From: a virus
Reading direction: 5' to 3' (one strand)
Length of the DNA stretch: 64,000 bases
IMG/VR virus record: IMGVR_UViG_3300021962_000061
Location: 25,598-89,597 of that record
Shown here in pieces: positions 50,395-64,000 of this stretch (its first letter is position 1; every line of letters starts with the position of its first letter). The translations under genes were made by a program, and so were the position numbers. The notes under the pieces were generated by a model. It was not told where the DNA came from, did no database searches, and saw only the letters and a program-made list of their open reading frames with translations.

Positions 50395-50478
50395 TGGTGC
50401 GAGAGAAGAGATTCGAACTCTTAAACCTTTCGGTACTAGTTCCTAAGACTAGCGCGTATACCGTTCCGCCACTCTCGC
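50395..50478 (-). tRNA. tRNA-Leu(UAG)
   Basis: 84 nt including encoded CCA. Acceptor GCGAGAG with CTCTCGC, discriminator A, anticodon loop CTTAGGA, T-loop TTCGAAT, long variable arm as expected for Leu. Reads CUA and wobble partners. Confidence 0.93.
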
Positions 50479-50521
50479 AGTATTGGGCATTATATGTTAA
50501 TTTGTCTTACTAGTCAACAGA

Positions 50522-50611
50522 TGGCGGAAGCGGAAGGATTCGAACCTTCGAGTCCCGTAAAGGACTTCTAGTTTTCAAGACTAGCGTATTCAACCGCTCT
50601 ACCACACTTCC
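50522..50611 (-). tRNA. tRNA-Ser(UGA)
   Basis: 90 nt with encoded CCA. Acceptor GGAAGTG with CGCTTCC, discriminator G, anticodon loop CTTGAAA, long variable arm (GTCCTTTACGGGAC), T-loop TTCGAAT. Reads UCA. Confidence 0.93.
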
Positions 50612-50662
50612 GTCTGTTTAGTTGTACATTATATATGTTTTTAAGTATAACGTCAACACATA

Positions 50663-51307
50663 TTAGTCATTTGAATATTTCATTTTAGATCTAGGAGCAA
50701 AGATCATATTAATCACAACTCTTGTTTCATGATTGATAGGTGTAGACCCTGCATGTACAGTACATGATGGATAGATAATACCAGTTCCCTTTACGGGTGA
50801 CGCCTTTGCAATGCAATGGTCATTATCATTAAAGAACAAGGTATCTCCATCACTATCATTAACATAATACAAACAGGTTAAAAATGATGGGTCTCTGTTA
50901 TCTGGATGCGGTGCATTAAGACACCAGTGTGGTCTGATTGTTTGCATATTTGCCATTGCTCTAAACACCACATAATCAGAAGGTATCATCTTTTCATGCA
51001 CAAATTTAATTAAGTGAATTGATGCTGGAAATAAACTATTGAGTGGATTTGTGTTTGCGCTGAATTCTCTTTCAAATGTTGTTGTATGGTACTGAGGTTT
51101 ATCAAAATTGTAAAACTCTTGCGTAAACTTCTGAGTATCGTTTACATGGTACTCACCTATCTTATTTGCTTCGCCACCAACGCGCTCCCAATGCTTATAC
51201 TTTGTTGTTATTTTACAATACTGCCAATTTACTTTTACACTATGCAGTTCTTTATTAATTGGATCTGCTAGAGAGTTTGGTATTACAAATTTTGAAAATG
51301 AAGCCAT
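50663..51307 (-). CDS. 2OG-Fe(II) oxygenase, tandem paralogue 1
   Basis: 214 residues. LNAPHPDNRDP gives H134-x-D136, then LTCLYYVNDSDGDTLFFND (Y-Y-V-N-x-S-D-G-x-T-x-F) and YPSCTVHAGSTPINHETRVVINMIF with His185 and Arg196. The same layout occurs in the next gene, so this is a tandem duplication. Substrate unknown. Confidence 0.87.
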   Translation of the reverse strand: MASFSKFVIPNSLADPINKELHSVKVNWQYCKITTKYKHWERVGGEANKIGEYHVNDTQKFTQEFYNFDKPQYHTTTFEREFSANTNPLNSLFPASIHLIKFVHEKMIPSDYVVFRAMANMQTIRPHWCLNAPHPDNRDPSFLTCLYYVNDSDGDTLFFNDNDHCIAKASPVKGTGIIYPSCTVHAGSTPINHETRVVINMIFAPRSKMKYSND

Positions 51308-51309
51308 AA

Positions 51310-51864
51310 TTATTTTGATCCAAAAATCATATTAATGACATACCTATTATTGTTAGTAACAGGCAGCTGTCCTGCATGAACAGTGTTTGAAGAAAACATT
51401 ACACCAGTACCTTTGATTGGTTGCGTTCTTAATACTTCTACTCCCTTGTCATAAAACAACGTACACCCATCACTATTGTTTACATAATACAAAAATGATA
51501 TTTTATCATCATCGTACGAATCAACATGGGGTAGATTTATCAGATAATTTTTTGTTTGTGTAGTTAGATTAGCCATTACGCGTAACGGTTTGTAGTTGGG
51601 TGGCATTACATTATTTTTCACCCAACCAATTAGAGGATAAACAAACTTGATATCCTCTTCATGACTTTTTGTTTTTGGATAGAAGTAGTGTGTTAATCTA
51701 GGGCTATCAAGAATTGGAAACTCTTGGGGTAAGATTTCTTCGTGACCTTTCTCTTCGCGTGTTAAAGTAGTACCAAAATAAAACCAGGGTATTTTTGTTC
51801 CTGTAACCCATTGTTCTACTTTATCGGCAATTTGATTTGGTATATTATCAATAACTTTTAGCAT
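51310..51864 (-). CDS. 2OG-Fe(II) oxygenase, tandem paralogue 2
   Basis: 184 residues. LPHVDSYD gives H113-x-D115; FLYYVNNSDGCTLFYD and FSSNTVHAGQLPVTNNNRYVINMIFGSK give His163 and Arg174. Its core aligns with the gene at 50663 (Y-Y-V-N-x-S-D-G-x-T-L-F, S-x-T-V-H-A-G-x-x-P). It ends 2 bp after that gene begins, so the pair is one unit. Confidence 0.87.
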   Translation of the reverse strand: MLKVIDNIPNQIADKVEQWVTGTKIPWFYFGTTLTREEKGHEEILPQEFPILDSPRLTHYFYPKTKSHEEDIKFVYPLIGWVKNNVMPPNYKPLRVMANLTTQTKNYLINLPHVDSYDDDKISFLYYVNNSDGCTLFYDKGVEVLRTQPIKGTGVMFSSNTVHAGQLPVTNNNRYVINMIFGSK

Positions 51865-51874
51865 ACACTATAAA

Positions 51875-51950
<76 letters not shown>

Positions 51951-51955
51951 ATATT

Positions 51956-54292
51956 TTATGAATCAGTATAGTAAACAATACTTAAGTTTAAGTAACCAGC
52001 TTGCCATCCACCTGAGTCGTTAGTTGAAGATTGTGTTCCGCTTCTGAAATATATAGAAGTGCTATCGATCCATGTACTATAGACAGCATTTACAAAAGCA
52101 TCGTTGTACCCAATAGTCCCATTACCACCATACTGTGGATCGTCACAAGCAAAAGGCAACCCTGTAATTTGTGTTGAACCAGACCCAGCAGATGATACGC
52201 TTGATATATGTGCTTTAATTGTAACGAACACCAGATGTCCAATTTTAACATATTTACCAGTTGGGCTGACAGTAAACGACAAAGTGGGGCTTGATGATGC
52301 ACGTGTTAGTGTTGGTGTGAATGTTCCTGCTTCATAATCCCCAAGTAGTTCAGACGTCATCCCGGAATTGTTTGAGCTTGGTGAGAAATCAACACCATAT
52401 CCACTATCAAATCTAATACTCGATCTCTTAACTTCTATAATGTTATTTGAAACATTTGGTACCACTAAAGACTGATTATCATTAACAACACTTGTCAGGT
52501 GACCAACCTCAATTGGCCAATCCTTACACAGATTGTTGTCAATCCAATACTTAGTGGTGATTGTATTACTGCTTACACCACTTAATAACTCAACAAAATA
52601 TTTTCCAGTCCCAGCATTCACGGATGTGCCAATATTATTCCGAACAAAGATATAATCTAGTGAGGCTGAGTTACACACACCATTCTTACCTATTGTAACA
52701 AGTGGTGGCATATATGATGATACGGTTCCTTTAAAGTGAACCTTGTTATTTTCGATTACAATCTGTTTACCATTCTGAATATAGATGCAAGGATTACTAG
52801 AACCAAAAGTCGTTGGCGTACCCTCAAAGTTATTATTGGTGATATAAACTTTTTCTGTGAAGTAACTTGTAGGAGTTTGTTCTTCACCAATTATAATATC
52901 TGATGCTGCATTTTGTCTATTAGTAATATAGTTACCAGATATCATAACTGAACTACAATTCAGCGAATCAGATGTTACTGTATCTACTGCAATGGCTGTA
53001 TCCCAAAATGTATCAATCTTGTTGTTGATAAACATCACATCTGATGATCTTGAGAGGCTTACAGCAGCTCTAATTGCACCAGTGTTTCCAACAAAGTCAC
53101 CAATTGGTTTCCTGTGGTTGGTAACAATATTATTTTCCCAAATATTATTTGTATTAATACCGCTGGCCTGGTAAATAGAGTGTCGGCAAGCATTATCAAT
53201 ATTGTTGCCATAGATGTGACAGTTTGTAGCTGCTGTCAAATTGATACCATAACCAGAGCCAGTAGCGGCACCGAGAATATTGTATAAGTTGTTGTTATAT
53301 ACTTGACAACTATCTATTGTGTCTCCGCTGCGAGCGTACAAAGCAATACCAACATTGATATTTTTAATCGTTAGGTTATGTAATCTTATATTTGTAGCAT
53401 TCAGTGAAGGTACTGTAAATCCTATCACAGCGATGGCATTTTGACCCCACCACTCATAAACAACACCATTACCTGTAACAGATGAGCCATCATAGATAAA
53501 TTTTTGATCTTCCCCATTACTAGGAGCACCTAGTGTAGTGAAATCTGTTGTTCCAGCTGATTTAATTGAGTAGGTTTTACCTGATACCATTGATGTTGCA
53601 TTAAGGGATGTTACACCTTTATTTGATCCCTCTAGCGTCAAACCATCAATCTCAACACTATCACAAGTACCATCAATATCAATGATTGTACTTTCTCTCA
53701 TGTAGGTGTAGTTTGCAGACGTGCTGAAAAATATCCTACCTTTACCAGTCAGTCTAATTCTGTTCTTGTTATATACTAATAGAGCAGGAGACGTACCAGT
53801 CCCGCTACCAACAGATACAAGATAATTTTTTGTGAATAGTAATGTTTCGCCATCTGTTAGACTATCGATAGCAGCTTGAATTGCTGCTGTATCATCTGTA
53901 GTTCCATCACCAACAGCTCCATAACTTTCAGGTGTTTTTACTCTACCAACAAAGGAAACACTACCTGTCACGGTTAAATTTCCTGTGGTAGTAGTATTAA
54001 CACCAATAGAACTTACGTTGATTGTTGTTGAATTTGCGGTCCAGTATACAGTTGAGTTTCCAACATGTAAGTTACCAGATACGTTTGCATATCCTGATAT
54101 TTGAATACTCTCAAATTCTGTTACAGAAGAAGGTGGCGACGATGTGTTAGCAACAAGAAATATGTGACCATTTGATGTACTGCCAACATCAGTGGGGTCG
54201 ATAGTAGCTACAGTTATAGAATTTGAGGTGTAAACGCCATTATTACTAATACCAGCTTCTACTAGATTTGAAGGTCTTATTCGTGTTGTCAT
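51956..54292 (-). CDS. Tail spike with pectate-lyase-like beta-helix
   Basis: 778 residues from ATG 54292 (MTTRIRPSNLVEAG). Residues 1-120 share fibre modules with the genes at 162 and 2250 (GNSTVYWTANSTTINVSS, NLTVTGS). PESYGAVGDGTTDDTAAIQAAIDS near 130-150 is the classical entry to a Pectate_lyase_3-type right-handed beta-helix; repeated N-x-I/V-x-x-N strands follow to about residue 600. The C-terminal domain (YEAGTFTPTLTRAS, GKYVKIGHLVFVTIK, GYLNLSIVYY) is a common phage fibre knob. Such spikes often cleave surface polysaccharide; catalytic residues cannot be named here. It lies within the tRNA array, far from the other tail genes. Confidence 0.82.
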   Translation of the reverse strand: MTTRIRPSNLVEAGISNNGVYTSNSITVATIDPTDVGSTSNGHIFLVANTSSPPSSVTEFESIQISGYANVSGNLHVGNSTVYWTANSTTINVSSIGVNTTTTGNLTVTGSVSFVGRVKTPESYGAVGDGTTDDTAAIQAAIDSLTDGETLLFTKNYLVSVGSGTGTSPALLVYNKNRIRLTGKGRIFFSTSANYTYMRESTIIDIDGTCDSVEIDGLTLEGSNKGVTSLNATSMVSGKTYSIKSAGTTDFTTLGAPSNGEDQKFIYDGSSVTGNGVVYEWWGQNAIAVIGFTVPSLNATNIRLHNLTIKNINVGIALYARSGDTIDSCQVYNNNLYNILGAATGSGYGINLTAATNCHIYGNNIDNACRHSIYQASGINTNNIWENNIVTNHRKPIGDFVGNTGAIRAAVSLSRSSDVMFINNKIDTFWDTAIAVDTVTSDSLNCSSVMISGNYITNRQNAASDIIIGEEQTPTSYFTEKVYITNNNFEGTPTTFGSSNPCIYIQNGKQIVIENNKVHFKGTVSSYMPPLVTIGKNGVCNSASLDYIFVRNNIGTSVNAGTGKYFVELLSGVSSNTITTKYWIDNNLCKDWPIEVGHLTSVVNDNQSLVVPNVSNNIIEVKRSSIRFDSGYGVDFSPSSNNSGMTSELLGDYEAGTFTPTLTRASSSPTLSFTVSPTGKYVKIGHLVFVTIKAHISSVSSAGSGSTQITGLPFACDDPQYGGNGTIGYNDAFVNAVYSTWIDSTSIYFRSGTQSSTNDSGGWQAGYLNLSIVYYTDS

Positions 54293-54339
54293 TTGTTTTA
54301 AATACCTGCAAAAGTTAAACATTGAAGACCGCCCAGGAA

Positions 54340-55140
54340 CTAGCTAAAGTTGGTTAGGTAGCTCACCTTCTGTAAAATATTTATATATGTTTCCCAATTA
54401 CCTTCCCTTAAATTAGTAGTATTGAATGGTGTTGGTATTAAGCTATCGGAACTCTCTTTATATTGTTGAACCACATCTTTAGTTATTCCTAGACACTGTA
54501 AATTCAACGGCTTTATATGGTCTTCGTATGATAAAAGCATACCCTTACTGCCATATAATTGATAGAGGAGTTTGAATATCTCAAGTCTTTGAATGCTGGC
54601 TGTTGCTGCTCTTTTCATTTCAGCATCTGTGTAACCAAGTGTATCATACTTAATGATTTCACTACTAGCTGTAAAATTATTTTGTGGCTTCTTTCTTAAG
54701 ACGTTTCTATAGGCGTTGTTGATTTCTGATTTAAATTGTTCGGCAATATCCTTTCGGTATAAAAATATTACTTGTGTCTCAGGATCATTACAGCAGTATT
54801 CAATAAACTGTTTGTTGTAAAGTATCTGTATAATTGGATTCTTAATAATCCAGTTACTTTGCTGCTTAACAATTTGAATTCTTCTTTCTTGCTCCTCGGC
54901 CATTCTAATTAAGTCTGTTGAAAGATTGGAGCCAGCATACCTTATTAGGTTATCTCTAAAGTCATAAACCAAACGGTTATTTGTTTGTATTAGATTTGGT
55001 CTACCAGAAAGCGAAGATGTAATCAAACACTCACCTAAATTTTGATATCCAGTTGCCTGCTCTAGCAAATCTGCTAGTACAGTACTACCTGTTCTGAATG
55101 TACAGACAATTAGATATCGCTTGGGTGTTGTTTTGGCCAT
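54340..55140 (-). CDS. Sulfotransferase (Stf0-like)
   Basis: 266 residues. YLIVCTFRTGSTVLADLL (residues 9-26) is the PAPS 5'-phosphosulfate loop with R-T-G-S; FLYRKDIAEQFKSEINN near 126 matches the 3'-phosphate motif; a conserved L-S-Y-E-D follows. The family includes Stf0 (trehalose sulfotransferase). The acceptor here is unknown. Second sulfotransferase of the window, sharing no strong similarity with the one at 36162 outside the motifs. Confidence 0.8.
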   Translation of the reverse strand: MAKTTPKRYLIVCTFRTGSTVLADLLEQATGYQNLGECLITSSLSGRPNLIQTNNRLVYDFRDNLIRYAGSNLSTDLIRMAEEQERRIQIVKQQSNWIIKNPIIQILYNKQFIEYCCNDPETQVIFLYRKDIAEQFKSEINNAYRNVLRKKPQNNFTASSEIIKYDTLGYTDAEMKRAATASIQRLEIFKLLYQLYGSKGMLLSYEDHIKPLNLQCLGITKDVVQQYKESSDSLIPTPFNTTNLREGNWETYINILQKVSYLTNFS

Positions 55141-55159
55141 TGATGCAGGACCTCAAATT

Positions 55160-55234
55160 TGGTGAACCCAAGGGAATTCGAATCCCTATTCCAGCCGTGA
55201 AAGGGCTGTGTCCTAACCGTTAGACGATGGGTCC
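55160..55234 (-). tRNA. tRNA-Glu(UUC)
   Basis: 75 nt with encoded CCA. Acceptor GGACCCA, anticodon loop CTTTCAC, T-loop TTCGAAT. Its 5' part contains the stop and last six codons of the gene at 55213. Confidence 0.93.
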
Positions 55235-55494
55235 TTCTTAATAAAGTTGTAGTAGATCATCATACTATACCACGTGACGGAAAGACAAGTGTACCATATA
55301 CCTGCCATTGCTGAGTAGTATTGACCTAGTGAAAATAAAAGATATGTTCCTGATATCTGACCAGTATAGTTGATAAGTGGTGCCGCCCAATGGACGCCTT
55401 TAACAACTTTATCCCTATAGACTTTATAGATGTTCAGCATCACAGCTGTACTTGCTATAATTGGGAACATGCTATTGAATTGGTCTAGTGTCAT
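55213..55494 (-). CDS. Small three-helix membrane protein
   Basis: 93 residues. Three hydrophobic segments: FNSMFPIIASTAVMLNIYKVY, AAPLINYTGQISGTYLLFSLG and YYSAMAGIWYTCLSVTWYSMMIYY. Resembles the small PQ-loop-like membrane proteins of cyanophages, but that is weak. The last residues (DPSSNG) and stop lie within the tRNA-Glu gene, an overlap of 22 bp. Confidence 0.6.
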   Translation of the reverse strand: MTLDQFNSMFPIIASTAVMLNIYKVYRDKVVKGVHWAAPLINYTGQISGTYLLFSLGQYYSAMAGIWYTCLSVTWYSMMIYYNFIKKDPSSNG

Positions 55495-55504
55495 AATTTA
55501 AAAT

Positions 55505-55579
55505 TGGTAGCGGGGGATGGATTTGCACCACCGGTCTTCAGCTTATGAGGCTGACGAGTTGCTACTTCTCTACCCCGCA
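55505..55579 (-). tRNA. Initiator-like tRNA-Met(CAU)
   Basis: 75 nt with encoded CCA. Layout and anticodon loop CTCATAA follow the bacterial initiator tRNA; positions 1 and 72 are U and U, unpaired as in initiators. The anticodon stem TCAGC/GCTGA lacks the three G-C pairs typical of initiators. The D-loop has no GG, and the T-loop reads TGCAAAT instead of TTCAAAT. May be specialised or decaying. Confidence 0.75.
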
Positions 55580-55639
55580 ATAGTAAGGTCTCGGTTTATC
55601 TATCGCCACGCAGTGCGCACTACGTCCTAGATTCCTCAT

Positions 55640-55710
55640 TTACAAAAAACAGCCATCGCTGTGCGACAAACCTTACACCGAAAGGTAGGGCGGCTGGCTG
55701 CTTATTTATA
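55640..55710 (-). ncRNA. Candidate small RNA with late promoter and terminator
   Basis: Minus strand: TATAAATA at 55703-55710, then ~55 nt with a CCTT/AAGG hairpin, ending in ACAGC-GATG-GCTGT followed by TTTTT (about 55646-55663), a compact intrinsic terminator. The 55580-55721 gap has no coding potential. A second palindrome AGTGCGCACT lies just beyond, near 55613. A short transcript from box to terminator is inferred. Confidence 0.45.
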
Positions 55711-55721
55711 TAAATTTGAAA

Positions 55722-55797
55722 TGGTGCCCACTGTCTGACTCGAACAGACCACCTGCTGATTACAAATCAGCTGCTCTACCGGATGAGCTAAGTGGGC
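55722..55797 (-). tRNA. tRNA-Thr(UGU)
   Basis: 76 nt with encoded CCA. Acceptor GCCCACT, D-arm AGCTCATCCGGTAGAGC, anticodon loop TTTGTAA, T-loop TTCGAGT. Reads ACA. Confidence 0.94.
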
Positions 55798-55825
55798 GAT
55801 TAATTAGTATTATAGTATATATGGG

Positions 55826-56122
55826 TTAATGAGTCAACATTTTTATTAACCCTGCAAAATCAATTAGTGTCAACAAAAGATAGTTGGCTAGCATTCCAAA
55901 CGAACCTCTCGTCCATGAGGACCAGGCATACATTGAGCAGCCAATAATCCACGCAGCGTAGAGAGGAATGAGAGGAGGATTGGGGACAGTTATTGCCATG
56001 GTTAATGTACAACCAATCGATATTGCCCAAGCCAATACTTCTATACAAAATCTAAAAGGGTAAGAATGATAATCCTCTTTAGCCCAGTTATACGTATCAT
56101 TTACTGCTTGTTTAATTAACAT
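55826..56122 (-). CDS. Small membrane protein
   Basis: 98 residues with three hydrophobic segments: FCIEVLAWAISIGCTLTMAITV, IPLYAAWIIGCSMYAWSSW and FGMLANYLLLTLIDFAGLI. The start KQAVNDTYNWAKEDYHSYPFRF is a pattern also found in cyanophage small membrane proteins. Function unknown. Confidence 0.6.
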   Translation of the reverse strand: MLIKQAVNDTYNWAKEDYHSYPFRFCIEVLAWAISIGCTLTMAITVPNPPLIPLYAAWIIGCSMYAWSSWTRGSFGMLANYLLLTLIDFAGLIKMLTH

Positions 56123-56137
56123 TCTTACACCCTAAAT

Positions 56138-56214
56138 TGGCGACCCCGGCAGGACTCGAACCTGCGACCCACAGCTTAGAAGGCTGTTGCTCTAATCCAC
56201 TGAGCTACGAGGCC
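56138..56214 (-). tRNA. tRNA-Arg(UCU)
   Basis: 77 nt with encoded CCA. Acceptor GGCCTCG, anticodon loop CTTCTAA, T-loop TTCGAGT. Reads AGA and AGG. Confidence 0.93.
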
Positions 56215-56220
56215 ATAAAC

Positions 56221-56305
56221 TGGTGCGACTGGTCGGACTTGAACCGACATGGCTAACGCCGACAGATTTTAAGTCTGTTGTGTATACCGATTCCACCACA
56301 GTCGC
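56221..56305 (-). tRNA. tRNA-Leu(UAA)
   Basis: 85 nt with encoded CCA. Acceptor GCGACTG, anticodon loop CTTAAAA, long variable arm, T-loop TTCAAGT. Reads UUA and UUG. Second Leu tRNA of the array. Confidence 0.93.
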
Positions 56306-56308
56306 AAA

Positions 56309-56845
56309 CTAATTGTATTTGTTACCAAAAGATATTGTTGCTCTTGGTCCTAATGGTTTAGCATGGTGGTGTGTGCCACGTGGTATATAAATTAAATCCC
56401 CTGGACGCATCTCAGTTTGAAAGTAGCTATCTTCTTCGTCGATAGTAAACACTGATTTACCAACTGCCTGCCAGCACCACACATCCATCTTATCTTTATG
56501 TCTAGTATAACTTTGGGACATTGAGCTAAAACTTATGAATGCATAAGCAGAGCACCACTGAACACTACTATTACTACTCTGAGCAAGTTTAGTTGCAAAC
56601 TCTCGTACGTGTGGTAGATCAATAACAGACCCATGAATTATAAAGCCATAGTTATCCATTTGAACAAACGGTTTGATTCTTTTTCTTTCTTCGCCACTAA
56701 CATGCTTATGTTGTATTTCTTTATCAAATGCATGAAGTATTCCATTCCAGCCCGGCGTAGGAATACCAACGTTGCCAAAAAAATGAAAGCGCTTTTCAAC
56801 TATTGCAAGTTGATAATGTTTGTCGTAAAGAAAGTCGTATGTCAT
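56309..56845 (-). CDS. Cupin/JmjC-like Fe(II) oxygenase
   Basis: 178 residues from ATG 56845 (an in-frame TTG 24 bp up is the alternative). YTRHKDKMDVWCWQAVGKSVFTI gives H116-x-D118, and GDLIYIPRGTHHHAKPLGPRATISFG gives the distal His (159-161) and Arg168: a JmjC/Cupin_8-like double-stranded beta-helix. PRG-x-x-H-x-A-x-P is typical for protein hydroxylases of that class. Target unknown. It follows two tRNA genes. Confidence 0.7.
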   Translation of the reverse strand: MTYDFLYDKHYQLAIVEKRFHFFGNVGIPTPGWNGILHAFDKEIQHKHVSGEERKRIKPFVQMDNYGFIIHGSVIDLPHVREFATKLAQSSNSSVQWCSAYAFISFSSMSQSYTRHKDKMDVWCWQAVGKSVFTIDEEDSYFQTEMRPGDLIYIPRGTHHHAKPLGPRATISFGNKYN

Positions 56846-56854
56846 ACAATTTAG

Positions 56855-56931
56855 TGGTCGGATATGCAAGATTCGAACTTGCGACCCCCTGCTCCCAAAG
56901 CAGGTGCACTACCAGACTGTGCTAATATCCG
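56855..56931 (-). tRNA. tRNA-Pro(UGG)
   Basis: 77 nt with encoded CCA. Acceptor CGGATAT, anticodon loop TTTGGGA, T-loop TTCGAAT. The first 10 bases of the tRNA contain the end and stop codon of the gene at 56922. Confidence 0.93.
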
Positions 56932-57173
56932 ATTCTTAGATTAGTAATATACCTTAAATTCTTTTCCGCGTCAACTTTATTCTTATATCCTTCGCAAGAA
57001 GCACCAATTATATTTCCATTTGATGCAGTGATTCTCCAACGCCATTCGTTAGCTTTGTCTTTGTAAATCTCGTGCTTTGGTTTGGAAATTTTTGGTGGGT
57101 CTTCGCGCAGGCGATCATTGCTTGTATCGCGTACGACTTTTGGATTCAAAAATTCAAGCAATTGATGTAACAT
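56922..57173 (-). CDS. DUF1508 (YegP-like) small protein
   Basis: 83 residues. FEIYKD-type repeat: HEIYKDKANEWRWRITASNGNIIGASCEGYKNKVDAEKNLRYI is the DUF1508/YegP pattern (Y-K-D-x-x-x-x-W-R-W-R-I-x-A-x-N-G-x-I-I-G-x-S-x-E-G-Y). The first 30 residues are charged. Function unknown. It overlaps tRNA-Pro by 10 bp at its 3' end. Confidence 0.75.
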   Translation of the reverse strand: MLHQLLEFLNPKVVRDTSNDRLREDPPKISKPKHEIYKDKANEWRWRITASNGNIIGASCEGYKNKVDAEKNLRYITNLRIGY

Positions 57174-57190
57174 TTTATACTCTTACGTAG

Positions 57191-57265
57191 TGGTGGGACC
57201 ACAGGGGCTCGAACCCTGAACTTACTGGTTAAAAGCCAGTTACTCTACCATTGAGTTATAGTCCC
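57191..57265 (-). tRNA. tRNA-Lys(UUU)
   Basis: 75 nt with encoded CCA. Acceptor GGGACTA, anticodon loop CTTTTAA, T-loop TTCGAGC. Reads AAA and AAG. Confidence 0.93.
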
Positions 57266-57318
57266 GGTAATTAATTCTAGAATAATTATAGACTATTTTA
57301 GATTGAATGGCAACTGGT

Positions 57319-57957
57319 TTATGGTCGTCTATCGAAGTAGTATTCTGAATACTTTCCTCTACTCTTAACGTAATGGAAATAAACCTGTAGTGTCTCTTCA
57401 CCCTGGAAGAACTCTCTGTGTTTGTATAGGTTGTGACCATAATATAATAGAGCGTCACCTACACCGATACAAACATCTTCAATTGTACCATCTGGCTTTT
57501 CAATAACAATTGGCCAATTGGCACCACCTTTGCCACTAGGGCCAAAATTAGCTAGTAAGGAAATTTCACAAGGCTCTCTTTCGCTATGTTTTGAAACTGT
57601 TGAACCTGCTTTATATAATTTTGCATATGTGTATGTTGGTAGAACAGGTTCTCCAAATATCTTACCAACAGCTGCTGTTCTTTCTACTAAAATTTGTAAA
57701 CAAGCAGTTTCATTTGCACTGCCTAAGTTACCAGACTTATCTGTTGCTACACTACCTTTATTGCAGGACTCTATAAATTTATCTGCAACATCAGTTAGAA
57801 CTTCTGAGCTGATGTAATTTTTAATAACCACAAAGCCCTTTTGTTGTAGCGATTGGTTTAGATTATTAGCATCATTATCATCTGGAAACCAGCCAGCATT
57901 AACACCAGCAAACAACTGTGTGCCACCAACTACTACTTTTGATACTGATAGACCCAT
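57319..57957 (-). CDS. 2OG-Fe(II) oxygenase (phytanoyl-CoA-dioxygenase-like)
   Basis: 212 residues. LQQKGFVVIKNYISSEVLTDVADKFIE is the usual start of PhyH-type oxygenases. The iron site appears to be H124-S-E126 (VSKHSEREPCEISLLANFG), an H-x-E variant of H-x-D, with distal His180 in GDALLYYGHNLYKHRE followed by GEETLQVYFHYV. A late box TATAAATA lies 36-43 bp upstream. Substrate unknown. Confidence 0.75.
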   Translation of the reverse strand: MGLSVSKVVVGGTQLFAGVNAGWFPDDNDANNLNQSLQQKGFVVIKNYISSEVLTDVADKFIESCNKGSVATDKSGNLGSANETACLQILVERTAAVGKIFGEPVLPTYTYAKLYKAGSTVSKHSEREPCEISLLANFGPSGKGGANWPIVIEKPDGTIEDVCIGVGDALLYYGHNLYKHREFFQGEETLQVYFHYVKSRGKYSEYYFDRRP

Positions 57958-57992
57958 TTGATTGCCTACTTAATTTGTTACCTGGCTAGGGT

Positions 57993-58000
57993 TATTTATA
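57993..58000 (-). promoter_or_regulatory. T4-type late promoter box TATAAATA
   Basis: Minus strand TATAAATA in the 60-bp gap upstream of the oxygenase at 57319..57957. Confidence 0.6.
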
Positions 58001-58017
58001 TATCACATTTATCCAAA

Positions 58018-58599
58018 TTAACGAAACTGAATCAAATTAAACGCATCTCTACTAGCAGTGAATGCTCTAGCAGTTTCCTTTCTGTATACTACAGCATTCA
58101 GGCCTAACAATCTTTTGTTTTCTAGGATGGTGTAATTACAGTGCTCGGCAAGTGTCAAGAAAAACTCATCTGTATAGTATATTCTACAATGATTGTTCCA
58201 AGCACCACTAACCTCAAGTTCTCTTGCATTAGGAACAAGATGAATCATAATGCCACCTGGTTTAACAACATCATGCAGTATTGAAAAGCATTGATATTGT
58301 TTATCAATTGGTTCAACGTGTTCTGTTGTTCCTAAGTTAGTTAGGATATCAAATGAACTACGGAATTGGTAGAACAGTTCTGGCTTAGTTAAGTCAAGAG
58401 GTAATGCACCATCTTGCCCATTGATATCAACGGATGTGTGTAACATTCCGAGATCTTCAAAATGTTGCTTGCCTGTTGTAAACAGGCCACCAATAAATCT
58501 CTGATTGCCAAGTTCAAACATCGAAAGGCCGTTAGAGTTGTAGTATTCAAGGTTTATTGAATCCATAACAAAATCTAAGTATTCGGGTGTGTAAGCCAT
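58018..58599 (-). CDS. SAM-methyltransferase-like protein
   Basis: 193 residues from ATG 58599 (MAYTPEYLDFVMDSINLEYY). FELGNQRFIGG replaces the usual glycine loop, followed by SVDINGQDGALPLDLTK (acidic strand), FDILTNLGTTEHV (motif IV) and HDVVKPGGIMIHLVPNA (post-I strand). This layout is that of class I methyltransferases. Third methyltransferase of the window. It lies upstream of no other CDS and beside tRNA-Ile. Confidence 0.65.
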   Translation of the reverse strand: MAYTPEYLDFVMDSINLEYYNSNGLSMFELGNQRFIGGLFTTGKQHFEDLGMLHTSVDINGQDGALPLDLTKPELFYQFRSSFDILTNLGTTEHVEPIDKQYQCFSILHDVVKPGGIMIHLVPNARELEVSGAWNNHCRIYYTDEFFLTLAEHCNYTILENKRLLGLNAVVYRKETARAFTASRDAFNLIQFR

Positions 58600-58614
58600 A
58601 TGAATTCTCTTGAG

Positions 58615-58690
58615 TGGTGGGACAACATGGGTTCGAACCATGGACCTAAGCGTTATCAACACTTTGCTCTACCGACTGAGCTATTGTCCC
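58615..58690 (-). tRNA. tRNA-Ile(GAU)
   Basis: 76 nt with encoded CCA. Acceptor GGGACAA, anticodon loop TTGATAA, T-loop TTCGAAC. Reads AUC and AUU. Confidence 0.92.
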
Positions 58691-58701
58691 TTATATGTAT
58701 A

Positions 58702-58775
58702 TGGAGCAGTGTAGGAGAATCGAACTCCTTTGACGAGCTTGGAAGGCTCGGACACAACCAATATGCCAACACTGC
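58702..58775 (-). tRNA. tRNA-Gly(UCC)
   Basis: 74 nt with encoded CCA. Acceptor GCAGTGT, anticodon loop CTTCCAA, T-loop TTCGATT. Reads GGA. Second Gly tRNA. Confidence 0.92.
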
Positions 58776-58779
58776 AATA

Positions 58780-58856
58780 TGGGGTGACCGGTTGGATTCG
58801 AACCAACGAATACCGGGATCACAACCCGGGGTCTTAGGCCACTTGACAACGGTCAC
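58780..58856 (-). tRNA. tRNA-His(GUG)
   Basis: 77 nt with encoded CCA, discriminator C as usual for His. Acceptor GTGACCG, anticodon loop TTGTGAT, T-loop TTCGAAT. Reads CAC and CAU. Confidence 0.92.
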
Positions 58857-58862
58857 GTAAAA

Positions 58863-58937
58863 TGGAGTTGCGGACTGGACTCGCACCAGCATAAAAGAGT
58901 TTTGCAGACTCTTGCCTAACTTTTCGGCCACCGCAAC
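58863..58937 (-). tRNA. tRNA-Cys(GCA), altered elbow
   Basis: 75 nt with encoded CCA. Acceptor GTTGCGG, anticodon loop CTGCAAA. The T-loop is TGCGAGT (position 55 G, not T) and the D-loop GAAAAGTTA lacks the GG pair, like the initiator-like tRNA at 55505. Confidence 0.85.
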
Positions 58938-58938
58938 A

Positions 58939-59014
58939 TGGTAGCAACGGTCAGACTCGAACTGACGATAAACTCCGTATGAAGGAGGTGCATTGGCCAC
59001 TATGCTACGTTGCT
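58939..59014 (-). tRNA. tRNA-Met(CAU), elongator type
   Basis: 76 nt with encoded CCA. Acceptor AGCAACG/CGTTGCT, anticodon loop TTCATAC, T-loop TTCGAGT. Taken as elongator Met because a separate initiator-like and an Ile2-like CAU tRNA exist; the three roles are inferred. Confidence 0.8.
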
Positions 59015-59015
59015 A

Positions 59016-59576
59016 TTAAATAACTGGTATCAGCGACATCGAGTCGCTTGGTCCAAATGCTGTATTTGTAACATCAAACCCTATTGTAATTCTATGACCA
59101 TCATATGGTTCAACAACTTGAACTTTATGTCGTCTGTTACCAGGACCAATGTATATGTTGCCTATATCGTTTTCAATTTCGTAATTATCGAAAACTGTTT
59201 TGGTTCTTTTTGGATCTACTGAGATGTATCCATGAATGTACCAACTATGGTTGTGCCATTTGAGAACCTGATCTTGTCTATGGACATTTAACCACGACTG
59301 AAACCAAAGGTACTCGTCTGTAGGAGCAGTAATTTTAATCGCATCCAATAAGTCTTTATATAAATCAGTGAAGTATGAGCGTGGACCAACCAAGGAAAAT
59401 ATGTTGTATGTTTTGTATAGCCACGTACTATCTTTACTCACACTACCATACGTCTTAATTAAGAGCTTGTGTGCCGCACTAAGATCACGCAGCATCTCTT
59501 GCTGATGTTTTAAAATAACATCAGATCTGTAGATCCTATATCCACATTCGGTGTTATCTTCAATGAGTGAAAGCAT
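59016..59576 (-). CDS. 2OG-Fe(II) oxygenase (2OG-FeII_Oxy_5-like)
   Basis: 186 residues from ATG 59576 with AGGAG five bases upstream. WHNHSWYIHGYISVDP supplies H108 and H110 in the W-H-x-H-x-x-x-x-x-G-Y motif of the 2OG-FeII_Oxy_5 group, and NIYIGPGNRRHKVQVVEPYDGHRITIGFDV gives distal His150 and Arg162. The iron site is thus H-x-H instead of H-x-D. Substrate unknown; the gene ends 1 bp after a tRNA. Confidence 0.75.
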   Translation of the reverse strand: MLSLIEDNTECGYRIYRSDVILKHQQEMLRDLSAAHKLLIKTYGSVSKDSTWLYKTYNIFSLVGPRSYFTDLYKDLLDAIKITAPTDEYLWFQSWLNVHRQDQVLKWHNHSWYIHGYISVDPKRTKTVFDNYEIENDIGNIYIGPGNRRHKVQVVEPYDGHRITIGFDVTNTAFGPSDSMSLIPVI

Positions 59577-59626
59577 ATCTTCTCCTAATGGTGGAAGGTG
59601 TAAGGCAACACTTTCCAATGAAAGGA

Positions 59627-59709
59627 GGACTCATGTTGGCCAAGGCCTTTTTCGTGCTTGGCGCCGCGAGTCCACCGGCCTTTGCCCCACTTGCCCACCT
59701 CCATGGAGG
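59627..59709 (-). ncRNA. Structured spacer in tRNA array
   Basis: No ORF of note between 59577 and 59724. Nested stems: GGACTC (59627-59632) with GAGTCC (59668-59673), and inside it GCCAAG (59639-59644) with CTTGGC (59657-59662); further on the palindrome CCTCCATGGAGG (59698-59709). Could be a processed spacer or small RNA. Confidence 0.4.
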
Positions 59710-59724
59710 CAGTACGAGGCTATA

Positions 59725-59800
59725 TGGTACCCGGTGACGGGATCGAACCGCCGACAGTCGCCGTGTAAAGGCGGCGCTCTACCAGCTGAGCTAACCGGGC
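59725..59800 (-). tRNA. tRNA-Val(UAC)
   Basis: 76 nt with encoded CCA. Acceptor GCCCGGT with ACCGGGT (G-U at 1-72), anticodon loop TTTACAC/CTTTACA, T-loop TTCGATC. Reads GUA and GUG. Confidence 0.92.
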
Positions 59801-59808
59801 ATTCAAAA

Positions 59809-59894
59809 TGGTGGGAAAGGAAGGATTCGAACCTACTCAGCCTAAGGCGACAGATTTACAGTCTGTTGTGACTCTCCAACTTCACCGCTTGCCC
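59809..59894 (-). tRNA. tRNA-Tyr(GUA)
   Basis: 86 nt with encoded CCA and long variable arm. Acceptor GGGCAAG has a mismatch at the fourth pair; anticodon loop CTGTAAA, T-loop TTCGAAT. Reads UAC and UAU. Confidence 0.9.
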
Positions 59895-59907
59895 ACATAA
59901 ACTTTAA

Positions 59908-59981
59908 TGGCTGAGGAGCATGGATTCGAACCACGATAAGCAGGATCAAAACCTGCTGTCCTGCCGTTAGACGACTCCTCA
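59908..59981 (-). tRNA. tRNA-Gln(UUG)
   Basis: 74 nt with encoded CCA. Acceptor TGAGGAG with CTCCTCA, discriminator G, anticodon loop TTTTGAT, T-loop TTCGAAT. Reads CAA and CAG. Confidence 0.92.
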
Positions 59982-59990
59982 AAATAAGAT

Positions 59991-60097
59991 GCTCATGTAT
60001 CTCTCACACTTCCACACATCTCTGATTTTTCAATCATGATAGACTCGGGTGATTTTCAGATTTTGTATCGCGAGTACAAAACCAGCGATACATGAGC
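59991..60097 (-). ncRNA. Structured RNA candidate closed by an 11-bp stem
   Basis: GCTCATGTATC (59991-60001) pairs perfectly with GATACATGAGC (60087-60097). Inside are TTTTGTA/TACAAAA (60061-60067 with 60075-60081, 7-nt loop) and TGATT/AATCA with a GAAA loop on the minus strand (60023-60036). Three stems in 107 nt argue for a folded RNA. An overlapping 62-codon ORF (60030..60218 minus) is the competing reading. Confidence 0.5.
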
Positions 60098-60184
60098 AAC
60101 AGAGAAGGATGGGATAGTTGGGTTTGCTCACTCCAGGCATCCGGTGGAGGCTATACATTACTGCTAGCCACATCCTAAAGACAG

Positions 60185-60214
60185 CCGACACGTACATTGC
60201 TGCAGAGGTGTCGG
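60185..60214 (-). other. Hairpin in spacer
   Basis: CCGACAC (60185-60191) pairs with GTGTCGG (60208-60214). It lies in the 60098-60222 spacer next to tRNA-Ala. No other feature is visible in that spacer. Confidence 0.35.
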
Positions 60215-60222
60215 GCATATTT

Positions 60223-60298
60223 TGGTGGAGATGGACGGGATCGAACCGACGACATCCAGCTTGCAAAGCTGGCGCTCTCCCAACTGAGCTACATCCCC
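60223..60298 (-). tRNA. tRNA-Ala(UGC)
   Basis: 76 nt with encoded CCA. Acceptor GGGGATG, anticodon loop TTTGCAA, T-loop TTCGATC. Reads GCA and partners. Confidence 0.94.
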
Positions 60299-60305
60299 AA
60301 ATAAG

Positions 60306-60422
60306 GCGTGGGCTACCATTCAAGGTTCGTTCTTAGACCTTACCCCCACGCAATAAGGCTGCATTCCGTTAGCTCTCATAATTCATATAGTGCTACCCAT
60401 ACGGACAAACTCTCACACTATA
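60306..60422 (-). ncRNA. Structured spacer with two hairpins
   Basis: The 60299-60460 spacer has GCGTGGG/CCCACGC (60306-60312 with 60345-60351) enclosing AAGGT/ACCTT, and TATAGTG/CACTATA (60386-60392 with 60416-60422). No tRNA-like T-loop is found. Confidence 0.4.
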
Positions 60423-60460
60423 GGGGTGTACCCGTCAGACATGCCTGCAGGTCACCAAGA

Positions 60461-60535
60461 TGGCTGGCGAGGTAGGGATCGAACCTACGACAGAGTGATT
60501 AACAGTCACTTGATCTACCACTGATCTACTCGCCA
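60461..60535 (-). tRNA. tRNA-Asn(GUU)
   Basis: 75 nt with encoded CCA. Acceptor TGGCGAG, anticodon loop CTGTTAA, T-loop TTCGATC. Reads AAC and AAU. Confidence 0.93.
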
Positions 60536-60548
60536 ATAAAATATGATA

Positions 60549-60625
60549 TGGCGACTCGGATGGGGCTCGAACCCACGACCTCATGCGTGACAGGCATGTG
60601 AACTAACCAACTGTTCTACCGAGCC
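60549..60625 (-). tRNA. tRNA-Asp(GUC)
   Basis: 77 nt with encoded CCA. Acceptor GGCTCGG, anticodon loop CTGTCAC, T-loop TTCGAGC. Reads GAC and GAU. Confidence 0.93.
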
Positions 60626-60630
60626 AGAAA

Positions 60631-60706
60631 TGGTGGACCGTGTAGGGATCGAACCTACGACCTGTTGATTAAGAGTCAAATGCTCTACCAGCTGAGCTAA
60701 CGATCC
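60631..60706 (-). tRNA. tRNA-Lys(CUU)
   Basis: 76 nt with encoded CCA. Acceptor GGATCGT with ACGGTCC, anticodon loop CTCTTAA, T-loop TTCGATC. Reads AAG. Second Lys tRNA and the first tRNA after the leader promoter. Confidence 0.9.
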
Positions 60707-61047: not shown

Positions 61048-61076
61048 ATTATCTGCTAGTTTAATATGTATGTCAA
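61048..61076 (-). promoter_or_regulatory. Near-consensus sigma70 promoter of the tRNA operon
   Basis: Minus strand TTGACA (61071-61076), 17-bp spacer (61054-61070), GATAAT (61048-61053): exact -35 and five of six -10 bases. The stop codon TGA of the AAA gene lies within the -35. Predicted start near 61041. Confidence 0.75.
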
Positions 61077-61942
61077 CAGCCTCGAAAACAAGTTTGCTTA
61101 GCTAACTTTTGCCAATTGGCATAATCCATCTTCATCAACGTGGCCAACTTAATGACCATTCGAAGAGAGAGTTCACGGAGATTATCCATGTTCTTCTCTA
61201 CGAAGTCCACGATCGTAGACTCGTCGACCAATGTCAAACCCTTATCACGGAGCATCCCTAACGCAACGACTTGCTTGATACGAACGACGTAGTCCATCTT
61301 CGTCTTCATAGCCAAGTCGAGGTAATGAGACCTCGAGACAAGCGCCTCAAAGTGAGGAGCAAGTCTTGAACCACGAGCAATGAGATCATCAAAGTCGTAG
61401 TTCGTGATAAAGATCACCGAACCTTCGAACTCGAAACTGTTAGGAATCGGTTCGCCATCTTCATCTTCGATCTTATCAATAGATCGTGACAACCAATGAA
61501 GTTTGCGAGTGTCAGTAGAGTCACACGCGCTCTTCAACAAGTTCATTGACACGTCATCTGCGAAGATCGAATCCGAATCGTCGAATACAAGCACGCTGTG
61601 AGCGAAACGAGCTTCATATAACAATCGGTAGAGCGAGAGAGGACGAACATAACCCTTGATGTAGGTCACATGGTGACCCTGATCTTCGAGTTCCTTCATC
61701 TTCTGCTCAACCGTATACGACTTACCAAGACCAGCAGGTCCAGATACAATCAGAGCACGGTTGATGCCCTTACCTGTTGCCTCAGTGAGAACCTCAAGAG
61801 CGTTGAAACGATCCTTGAGCTTCTCCTCGATCTGCTCTACTGACTCTATACTCTTAGTAAGTGTAAGAGTCGGCATCACAGTACCTTGCTTCCGACGATT
61901 CTTAGTCATTCGGAAACCCTTCTTTGGAACGCCTCTAGGCAT
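61073..61942 (-). CDS. AAA ATPase
   Basis: 289 residues from ATG 61942 with TGAGG six bases upstream; a longer in-frame reading starts at 61954. Walker A GPAGLGKS (68-75), Walker B SVLVFDDSDS (116-125), then VIFITNYDFDDLIARGSRLAPHFEALVSRSHYLDL with sensor-1 Asn and a likely arginine finger. This is a small AAA protein of the kind found in T4-like marine phages, possibly clamp-loader- or RarA-like; exact role unknown. The N-terminal 25 residues are Lys/Arg-rich. Promoter C and repeat cluster C lie directly upstream. Confidence 0.82.
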   Translation of the reverse strand: MPRGVPKKGFRMTKNRRKQGTVMPTLTLTKSIESVEQIEEKLKDRFNALEVLTEATGKGINRALIVSGPAGLGKSYTVEQKMKELEDQGHHVTYIKGYVRPLSLYRLLYEARFAHSVLVFDDSDSIFADDVSMNLLKSACDSTDTRKLHWLSRSIDKIEDEDGEPIPNSFEFEGSVIFITNYDFDDLIARGSRLAPHFEALVSRSHYLDLAMKTKMDYVVRIKQVVALGMLRDKGLTLVDESTIVDFVEKNMDNLRELSLRMVIKLATLMKMDYANWQKLAKQTCFRGC

Positions 61943-61974
61943 TCGATACCTCATTCATCTCAAACATGACGCGC

Positions 61975-62010: not shown

Positions 62011-62245
62011 AATCAAGGGGTTACAAAATTGACCATAACCTCTTGATTTTCAACGAGTTATAACTTGTTGATTTTACTGGGGAATTTGAGAGCACATTTT
62101 GACGTGTATATACGAAAATTGAGCTAGTAGTACGCCAATGATACACAACTACACCTTCTAGACGACCTCGAAACGTGTAACCCATTGATTCTGAAGGAAA
62201 ACGTGTTTTCTTCATCCAAAAACACGGCGTTGTAACTTATTGATT
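62011..62245. repeat. 14-bp repeat cluster C (5 copies)
   Basis: AATCAAGGGGTTAC on plus (62011-62024); minus-strand copies at 62035-62048, 62060-62073, 62177-62190 and 62232-62245 (plus reads ATAACCTCTTGATT, ATAACTTGTTGATT, GTAACCCATTGATT, GTAACTTATTGATT). The stretch 62074-62176 between them holds no gene and no other feature I can support. The last copy covers the stop of the gene at 62237. Confidence 0.75.
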
Positions 62246-62434
62246 ATAGTAAGGATTTTCAGTGCGTAGGAATTGCTCGACCAATCGCTCAGCATATCGG
62301 ATGTCGCAACACCGTATTCTGTCTTCAGTTCTAAGAGTCTTATCCGTAAGAACACAAATGATGTTCTCAGGACCGTCAACAACCAGTTCAGCAACTTTAT
62401 TGTTAAATGCTATTGATCGGTAAACTAGACTCAT
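62237..62434 (-). CDS. Small protein of unknown function
   Basis: 65 residues (MSLVYRSIAFNNKVAELVVDGPENIICVLTDKTLRTEDRIRCCDIRYAERLVEQFL). Alternating strand-helix pattern. It overlaps the carbamoyltransferase gene by 32 bp and its stop lies in a repeat of cluster C. Reality is plausible from length and composition but not proven. Confidence 0.45.
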   Translation of the reverse strand: MSLVYRSIAFNNKVAELVVDGPENIICVLTDKTLRTEDRIRCCDIRYAERLVEQFLRTENPYYNQ

Positions 62435-63623
62435 TGTTGTACTGCTCCACTAACTTATAAAGTTTGTCCTTGGTCTCTACTATACTATATTCAGGACCAA
62501 GATACAAGGTGTCAATATTTTTAAATTTAGTATTTGGAAATTTATGTTTGTAGTGATATAGAGCAGCACCTAGTGCTTGGGATGCATCACACGCGATTGG
62601 TTCAATGAACACATTGAGATGTGGAAATGTCTTCTTGATTATTGAGTTTCCGAGAATGTTTAATGCACACCCACCACCTAACACCAGGTTGTTAGATGGA
62701 TTCAAATCTAGAGCCTGCTGTACTCTCTTTATAAAAATATCTTCCAAAGCTCTTTGAATATTATAGGCTAAATCTTTTTTAATCTCATCAGACGGATCAA
62801 TAAGAACAGGATTAGTTATTGTATCCACTTGACTATCATTTCTAAAGAAATTAGCATCCGAATGAGTTGTGCCTGGTATCAGCATAGGAGGAAGATTGTT
62901 AGGTTTACCGTAAGCTGAGAGGCCCATTGTTTTGCCAGCTTCATTAGAAGAAGGAAACCCTATATGTCTTGTTATTGTTCCATACATCTTGCCAATATCT
63001 ACATGCGATGATATTTGTACTGGATATTTAAAGAATTGTTTAGCATTTTGTGTTTTCGTATATGACCATCCAGTTAGTCCAAGGCCATGCTGCATATAAA
63101 ACAAATGTTTAAACAATGTTCTGAGATTTTGGTCAGCTTTGAAAATTGTTGTCGTTTCAGATAGATTGCAATCTGCCCAAACCCAGCCTGTTCCTACACC
63201 ATCAATTATGATGCAGTTTGCTTCTTCGAATCCTGATTGATAAAAGCCAGCAGCAGCATGGTATAAGTGGTGGTTGCTATTGTCGACAACAATTTGGCCA
63301 GTTTGTATTTTGGCCTTTTGCAGCATTTTTGTTAGTAGCATAACGTGAGTCGATACAGCAAACCCATTAACATTAGGCTCATGTTTTACATAAGCTGGAG
63401 AGTTTGGATTATTATTGTTATCTCTTACGTTGACTAGAACAACTAAATTAACTTTGTTTGTATATTTCTTAATGTGTTCTATATCATGTTGTTGTATTTT
63501 ACATGTGTGCTTTTGTCTAGTTGTTCTCTCACATGGATAGGCAAATAACACTTTACTATCTTCAAGTAGACAGATGCATGAATCGTGACTAGAAGATGAA
63601 AGTGCTAATGTGTAAAAACTCAT
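62403..63623 (-). CDS. Carbamoyltransferase, N-terminal domain (NodU/CmcH family)
   Basis: 406 residues. The fold starts at LALSSSSHDSCICLLEDSKVLFAYPCERTTRQKH; SNHHLYHAAAGFYQSGF carries the metal-binding His pair, CIIIDGVGTGWVW the acidic strand, EAGKTMGLSAYGKP the nucleotide loop, and LVLGGGCALN and CDASQALGAALYH the end of the ASKHA-like core. It stops before the YrdC-like C-terminal domain (G-R-M-E-x-G-P-R-A-L-G) that full-length NodU/CmcH enzymes (about 550-600 residues) carry. The missing domain is in the gene upstream (ATGA overlap). Reaction: carbamoyl transfer from carbamoyl phosphate to a hydroxyl or amine. Confidence 0.82.
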   Translation of the reverse strand: MSFYTLALSSSSHDSCICLLEDSKVLFAYPCERTTRQKHTCKIQQHDIEHIKKYTNKVNLVVLVNVRDNNNNPNSPAYVKHEPNVNGFAVSTHVMLLTKMLQKAKIQTGQIVVDNSNHHLYHAAAGFYQSGFEEANCIIIDGVGTGWVWADCNLSETTTIFKADQNLRTLFKHLFYMQHGLGLTGWSYTKTQNAKQFFKYPVQISSHVDIGKMYGTITRHIGFPSSNEAGKTMGLSAYGKPNNLPPMLIPGTTHSDANFFRNDSQVDTITNPVLIDPSDEIKKDLAYNIQRALEDIFIKRVQQALDLNPSNNLVLGGGCALNILGNSIIKKTFPHLNVFIEPIACDASQALGAALYHYKHKFPNTKFKNIDTLYLGPEYSIVETKDKLYKLVEQYNNESSLPINSI

Positions 63624-64000
63624 TTACTAACAACAACCTGCAACTCAGGGAGGTATAGGTAATCAATTCTAGACTTTGCAAATGTTTTGAATGTATCTTC
63701 TATAGTTTCCACCAACGGTTCACCAGCAAGATTCAATGATGTATTCAATACCATTGGTACCCCTGTCAAGTTGTAAAATGCTTTAATTAGGTTGTAGTAG
63801 TGATAATTTTGCTGTTCTGTTACCGTTTGTATTCTACACGACCCATCGACATGAATAACACAAGGTATAATATGCTTCTTGTCTTCTTTGCACGTAAATG
63901 AAAATGTCATGTATGGTGATTCTGGCAATCCAAGCATATCGAACCACTGATTAGCATACTCTAGCATCATTGATGCAGCTAGAGGTCTAAAGTATTCTCT
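63620..64000 (-). CDS. Carbamoyltransferase C-terminal domain, continues past window
   Basis: At least 127 residues; the reading frame stays open to the right edge (REYFRPLAASMMLEYANQWF). IPCVIHVDGSCRIQTVT, FYNLTGVPMVLNTSLNLAGEPLVET and SRIDYLYL are the end of the Carbamoyltrans_C domain. The domain is therefore encoded upstream of its N-terminal partner, the reverse of the usual order. Whether the part beyond the window is only this domain or a full second enzyme cannot be seen. Confidence 0.75.
   Translation of the reverse strand, partial: REYFRPLAASMMLEYANQWFDMLGLPESPYMTFSFTCKEDKKHIIPCVIHVDGSCRIQTVTEQQNYHYYNLIKAFYNLTGVPMVLNTSLNLAGEPLVETIEDTFKTFAKSRIDYLYLPELQVVVSK

Follow-up and report, generated by a model that had tools for sequence, protein, structure and literature searches.

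The window, the whole 64,000-nucleotide stretch of viral DNA analysed here, covers record positions 25598-89597 of an 89,597-base (89.6-kb) virus contig from a T4-like, water-borne phage, and on its right side it runs up to where the contig stops. At this end, two carbamoyltransferase genes and two neighbouring reading frames are encoded on the minus strand:

63620..64000, minus strand: C, a stand-alone YrdC-like (Carbam_trans_C) activating subunit (PF16861, E 1.2e-39), its 5' end cut by the contig end
63620..63623, minus strand: ATGA stop-start overlap between C and N2, read from the sequence
62403..63623, minus strand: N2, a 406-aa stand-alone Kae1-like (Carbam_trans_N) transferase subunit (PF02543, E 1.5e-31) with no C domain
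62237..62434, minus strand: small 65-aa open reading frame (ORF) that overlaps N2 at its end, kept after N2 in relatives (61-62 aa ORFs, L006-L014)
61073..61954, minus strand: AAA-type ATPase, corresponding to phrog_1250 in the relative L010, where it likewise lies downstream of the cassette

The N2 ORF matches Carbam_trans_N alone (profile positions 7-346 of 346), and the C ORF, which is open at its 5' end and shows 126 of about 185 amino acids, matches Carbam_trans_C alone (profile positions 49-166 of 170). The ORFs and their PF16861 and PF02543 matches bear out the sequence-only reading of a two-gene split, with the gene for the C-terminal domain placed upstream of the gene for the N-terminal domain and joined to it by ATGA. 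The minus strand reads ...AGT AAA TGA, such that the C stop codon TGA (63620-63622) overlaps the N2 start codon ATG (63621-63623), and this overlap may couple the translation of the two genes. Among split cassettes, C and N genes most often meet in a -4 overlap (26 cases), followed by -1 and -13 with 12 cases each.

In PHROGs both window proteins are named Nol-like carbamoyltransferase, and the collection contains a separate C-only family, phrog_20469, of 181 positions. No further match to the N or the C domain occurs elsewhere in the 89,597-base contig, and no contig that overlaps the cut end of C turned up when one was sought. Just downstream of the cassette, 22 of the 23 tRNA genes of the window lie on the minus strand within about 10 kb (50395-60706), with small protein genes between them.

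Close relatives encode N1, C and N2 in a row

In nine virus contigs, the encoded C protein shares 83-90% identity with the visible part of the window C, and all nine carry three genes in a row, N1, C and N2. A scan of viral contigs with the single N2 protein gave no match, whereas an alignment scan did. N1 measures 329-375 aa by ORF and ends short of the C domain. An ORF of its own, 185 aa at full length and in a frame differing from that of N1, encodes C; its ATG is kept in 9/9 contigs and precedes the last base of the N1 stop codon by 28 bases (a 29-base overlap). Relative contigs of 63, 68 and 188 kb each contain precisely two N genes and a single C gene. Where the contigs extend far enough, they share with the window the small ORF and the AAA ATPase after N2; since the ATPase follows the cassette as in L010, synteny exists between the window and the N1/C/N2 relatives. 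It is very probable, judging from these contigs, that the window phage also encodes N1 just upstream of C, past the contig end.

N1 and N2 share 36-41% identity, and N1 is without about 40 residues that N2 carries after the GKTMGLSAYG motif, a difference that suggests a different acceptor pocket. Where dS is finite, dN/dS amounts to about 0.06-0.26 for N1, 0.06-0.19 for N2 and 0.02-0.07 for C, and by this estimate all three genes are under purifying selection. The extra conservation of C over N in N/C/N cassettes, tested as a sign of C serving two partners, is slight and a weak trend.

In the freshwater relatives a tryptophan-halogenase gene is found near the cassette (L011:10150-11349, PF04820; L010:11646-12377, by similarity of its start). 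Upstream of N1, two phrog_10499 proteins of no assigned function (L011:2628-3122 and 4264-4815) flank the genes for dCMP deaminase and a late-transcription coactivator.

Split cassettes in phages and bacteria

Split cassettes occur in many aquatic phages, and several of these have more N than C genes. The viral loci comprise about 93 fused NC genes, about 39 C/N, 13 C/N/C/N and about 10 complete or near-complete N/C/N cassettes, counted among fetched loci with our own profiles after removal of identical cassettes; as the sample was drawn by queries with the split family, the counts do not reflect natural frequencies. Further viral layouts are C/N/C/N/N, C/N/N/C/N/N, NC/NC and NC/N, the last consisting of a 530-aa NC followed by a 283-aa N in L040-L044 and a few others, which do not belong to the clade of the window. 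Repeated expansion of N is seen in L234 and L235, where phage C/N/N/C/N and C/N/N/C/N/N cassettes lie beside the end of a thymidylate synthase gene.

Among cultured cyanophages, S-RIM44 and Sf-FP1 carry thymidylate synthase/C/N and S-SCSM1 carries C/N/C/N, and N1/C/N2 is absent from the cultured isolates examined. In cellular genomes 75 of 80 cassettes are a single fused NC. The cultured bacterium Paenibacillus pinihumi harbours N/C/N; its N proteins, two in number, form a sister pair (support 1.0) outside the phage clade, and on this tree the bacterial arrangement arose independently. The Paenibacillus set (L263:1375-8519) lies in an apparent biosynthetic cluster with adenylation-like, aminotransferase-like and radical-SAM-like neighbours, as judged by eye.

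Origin of the three-gene cassette

In the tree of N proteins, the window N2 groups with the N2 of a relative (0.992), and all N2 proteins fall together (1.0). N1 is sister to N2 with moderate support (0.674), and the clade that contains both (0.995) is made up of split N proteins, their cassettes being C/N and C/N/C/N. Among the C proteins, the window C joins those of other N/C/N cassettes (0.995) and next those of C/N cassettes (0.916). The simplest history compatible with these trees would be a duplication of N in a C/N pair, which thereby acquired its second N. A broken fused gene, expected at first as the source of N1 and C, is ruled out by the tree.

A different layout, a full enzyme followed by a truncated copy, had been offered by the sequence-only reading as an alternative. 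It would place a complete fused N-C enzyme upstream, and the 406-aa gene would be a shortened duplicate without a catalytic role. Such NC/N loci are real, as in L040-L044, yet the window C does not group with them, and N2 retains every iron ligand (see below) along with its signature of purifying selection. Where that reading had looked for a complete carbamoyltransferase upstream, all nine close relatives instead have a separate N1 that stops short of the C domain. As the gene before C in these relatives is thus N-only and moreover a member of the split-N clade, the truncated copy is unsupported, and we consider it very unlikely. The G-R-M-E region, which had been noted as missing, is also accounted for: the QGRSESGPRALGNRS of the relatives sits in the C gene, past the contig end in the window, and not in the N gene. 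Of the proposed “permuted split enzyme”, the order C then N2 stands and is widespread in phages, but a simple two-gene split does not, since the nine relatives have N1/C/N2. On the evidence of its relatives, the locus differs both from a full enzyme with a truncated copy and from a plain division into two genes.

The gene junction also invites the idea that a +1 ribosomal frameshift in the 29-base overlap joins N1 and C, which would yield an N1-C fusion plus N2. C indeed lies in the +1 frame of N1, the overlap is conserved, and the N1/C junction falls at the interdomain linker of the fused enzymes. Yet the ATG of C is invariably retained, whereas the point to which its frame stays open upstream differs between contigs (31 to 91 bases), C starts by itself in C/N phages, N1 descends from split N proteins, and no obvious slippery sequence was seen. 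Such a frameshift therefore appears most improbable, and we treat N1, C and N2 as separate proteins.

Catalytic residues and predicted structures

The residues H118, H119, H122, D141 and D346 (window N2 numbering) are invariant in 43 N proteins, including N1. The iron ligands of GdmN are H133, H137, D156 and D333 (PMC9633730), and the invariant His and Asp positions of N2 and N1 match them, in line with the two-His two-Asp set of class III O-carbamoyltransferases. In 38 C proteins, K58, R60, S147 and N149 (numbering of the 185-aa C) are invariant, and the C subunits thus carry the KxR...SxN motif of a TobZ-type YrdC-like domain, which is also the motif of TsaC (PMC9654439). The window C shows R60 and S-x-N, and the position of K58 lies past the contig end. 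By alignment, K58 and S147 of C equal K443 and S530 of TobZ (residue numbers counted from the alignment, with an offset of 6 fixed by H14), the positions for which mutant structures (K443A and S530A) have been deposited.

The AlphaFold2 model of N2 (pLDDT 89.3) finds its best fold match in the PDB with TobZ, followed by Kae1/TsaD. The model of C, built for the L011 protein (pLDDT 94.2), matches TobZ with a TM score of 0.91, followed by Sua5/TsaC and E. coli YrdC.

Comparison with known carbamoyltransferases

TobZ, GdmN, VtdB and NovN contain the same two catalytic domains as the phage subunits, with the iron ligands HHxxH...D...D and the KxR...SxN motif. These enzymes are one chain, N then C, whereas the phage domains are separate ORFs and form two chains, C then N, or N1-C-N2 in the relatives; the one-chain layout of the class is therefore not found here.

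In the t6A machinery, the activator TsaC/Sua5 (YrdC) and the transferase TsaD/Kae1 are separate as well (PMC9654439), and both phage subunits match these folds. By Pfam, however, the phage proteins are Carbam_trans_C and Carbam_trans_N and far closer to TobZ than members of the TsaC/TsaD families, and the likeness in fold does not imply threonylcarbamoyl chemistry. HypF has its YrdC domain before the Kae1 domain, the same order as the phage genes (PMC9654439), but it is one chain with additional acylphosphatase and zinc-finger domains.

A phage 5-hydroxymethylcytosine carbamoyltransferase identified by MetaGPA (PMC8670742) combines both Pfam domains, with genes for thymidylate synthase and dCMP deaminase close by. 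The enzyme tested in that work is one ORF (63 kDa), and its contig also encodes a PF00303 thymidylate synthase homologue, whereas the 16 contigs searched here have no PF00303 match. The cyanophage “Nol-like carbamoyltransferase” genes (phrog_1601, phrog_20469) encode the same proteins as the window, and S-RIM44, Sf-FP1 and S-SCSM1 carry them as C then N; in their annotation they figure as two or four carbamoyltransferases in their own right, and the split is described in no paper found. In a survey of T4-like cyanophages from 2010, all carbamoyltransferase genes listed measure 1524-1803 bp, a size expected of the fused form (PMC3037559). No earlier description of a split phage carbamoyltransferase was found in the open-licence literature, and one may exist elsewhere; the two-protein form of O-carbamoyltransferases apparently has not been described before.

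Neighbouring genes and the acceptor

ThyX is encoded on the same locus, mostly directly before the cassette, in 40 of 64 distinct split cases versus 2 of 101 fused ones, and PhoH, an exonuclease and a gp33-like coactivator follow the same pattern, all in comparisons that ignore shared descent and uneven sampling. The neighbouring ThyX proteins keep the usual RHRSxxxQxFS motif and give no hint of altered chemistry. Window-type cassettes have dCMP deaminase and a gp33-like gene upstream; ThyX is present in some of these contigs, not beside the cassette. A search for a linked dCMP hydroxymethylase (PF00303) gave no match in 16 possibly incomplete contigs, among them those of 188 kb and 126 kb, and this mark of a 5-hydroxymethylcytosine carbamoyltransferase was not seen in them. 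A Tet_JBP search found no match in the contigs, nor did its control.

The gene setting calls to mind the phage 5-hydroxymethylcytosine carbamoyltransferase (PMC8670742). DNA or nucleotide modification is our leading guess for the acceptor, held tentatively and at slightly less than even confidence. A glycan is ranked next as a guess, because some split cassettes, e.g., L200, appear by eye among sugar-related genes. The site of the cassette may also be a simple cargo spot in T4-like phages.

A proposed heteromeric carbamoyltransferase with a shared activating subunit

In the fused relatives, carbamoyl-AMP is the product of the YrdC-like domain, transfer of the carbamoyl group falls to the Kae1-like domain, and a channel runs between the domains (PMC9654439, PMC9633730). 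We consider it likely that the phage cassette specifies a heteromeric class III O-carbamoyltransferase, with the two catalytic domains as separate proteins, in which one C would serve N1 and N2. By analogy, the YrdC-like C would join carbamoyl phosphate and ATP to form carbamoyl-AMP, and the Kae1-like, putatively iron-binding N2, and also N1, would move the carbamoyl group onto an acceptor hydroxyl. C and N2, produced from overlapping and putatively coupled genes, probably form a complex resembling the two domains of TobZ, and the overlap of C and N genes fits a complex made in balanced amounts. The single C would be common to the N1 and N2 transferases.

A narrower form of this explanation, with which it overlaps in confidence, holds the partners fixed: C would work with N2 only (or N1 only), and the other N would be C-independent or regulatory. 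The C/N/C/N cassettes, with one C per N, agree with such pairing, as does the gap in N1 after GKTMGLSAYG. Against it, the 188-kb relative has a single C for two intact N genes, all catalytic residues are present in both N types, and N/C/N evolved independently in Paenibacillus; we regard fixed partners as rather unlikely. A further reading is a modular system, where one subunit making carbamoyl-AMP supplies two (elsewhere more) transferases with different acceptors and new carbamoylations arise by duplication of N alone. This broader proposal is possible, and we put it forward with some reserve.

For annotation, phage genes recorded as two to four carbamoyltransferases are corrected to subunits. 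The two-protein form links class III carbamoyltransferases to the separate TsaC and TsaD of tRNA modification and offers interchangeable parts ready-made. Known class III carbamoyltransferases have a channel between the two domains of one chain, through which an unstable intermediate passes; if the proposal is true, two distinct proteins can build such a channel together, and it can be turned to further acceptors.
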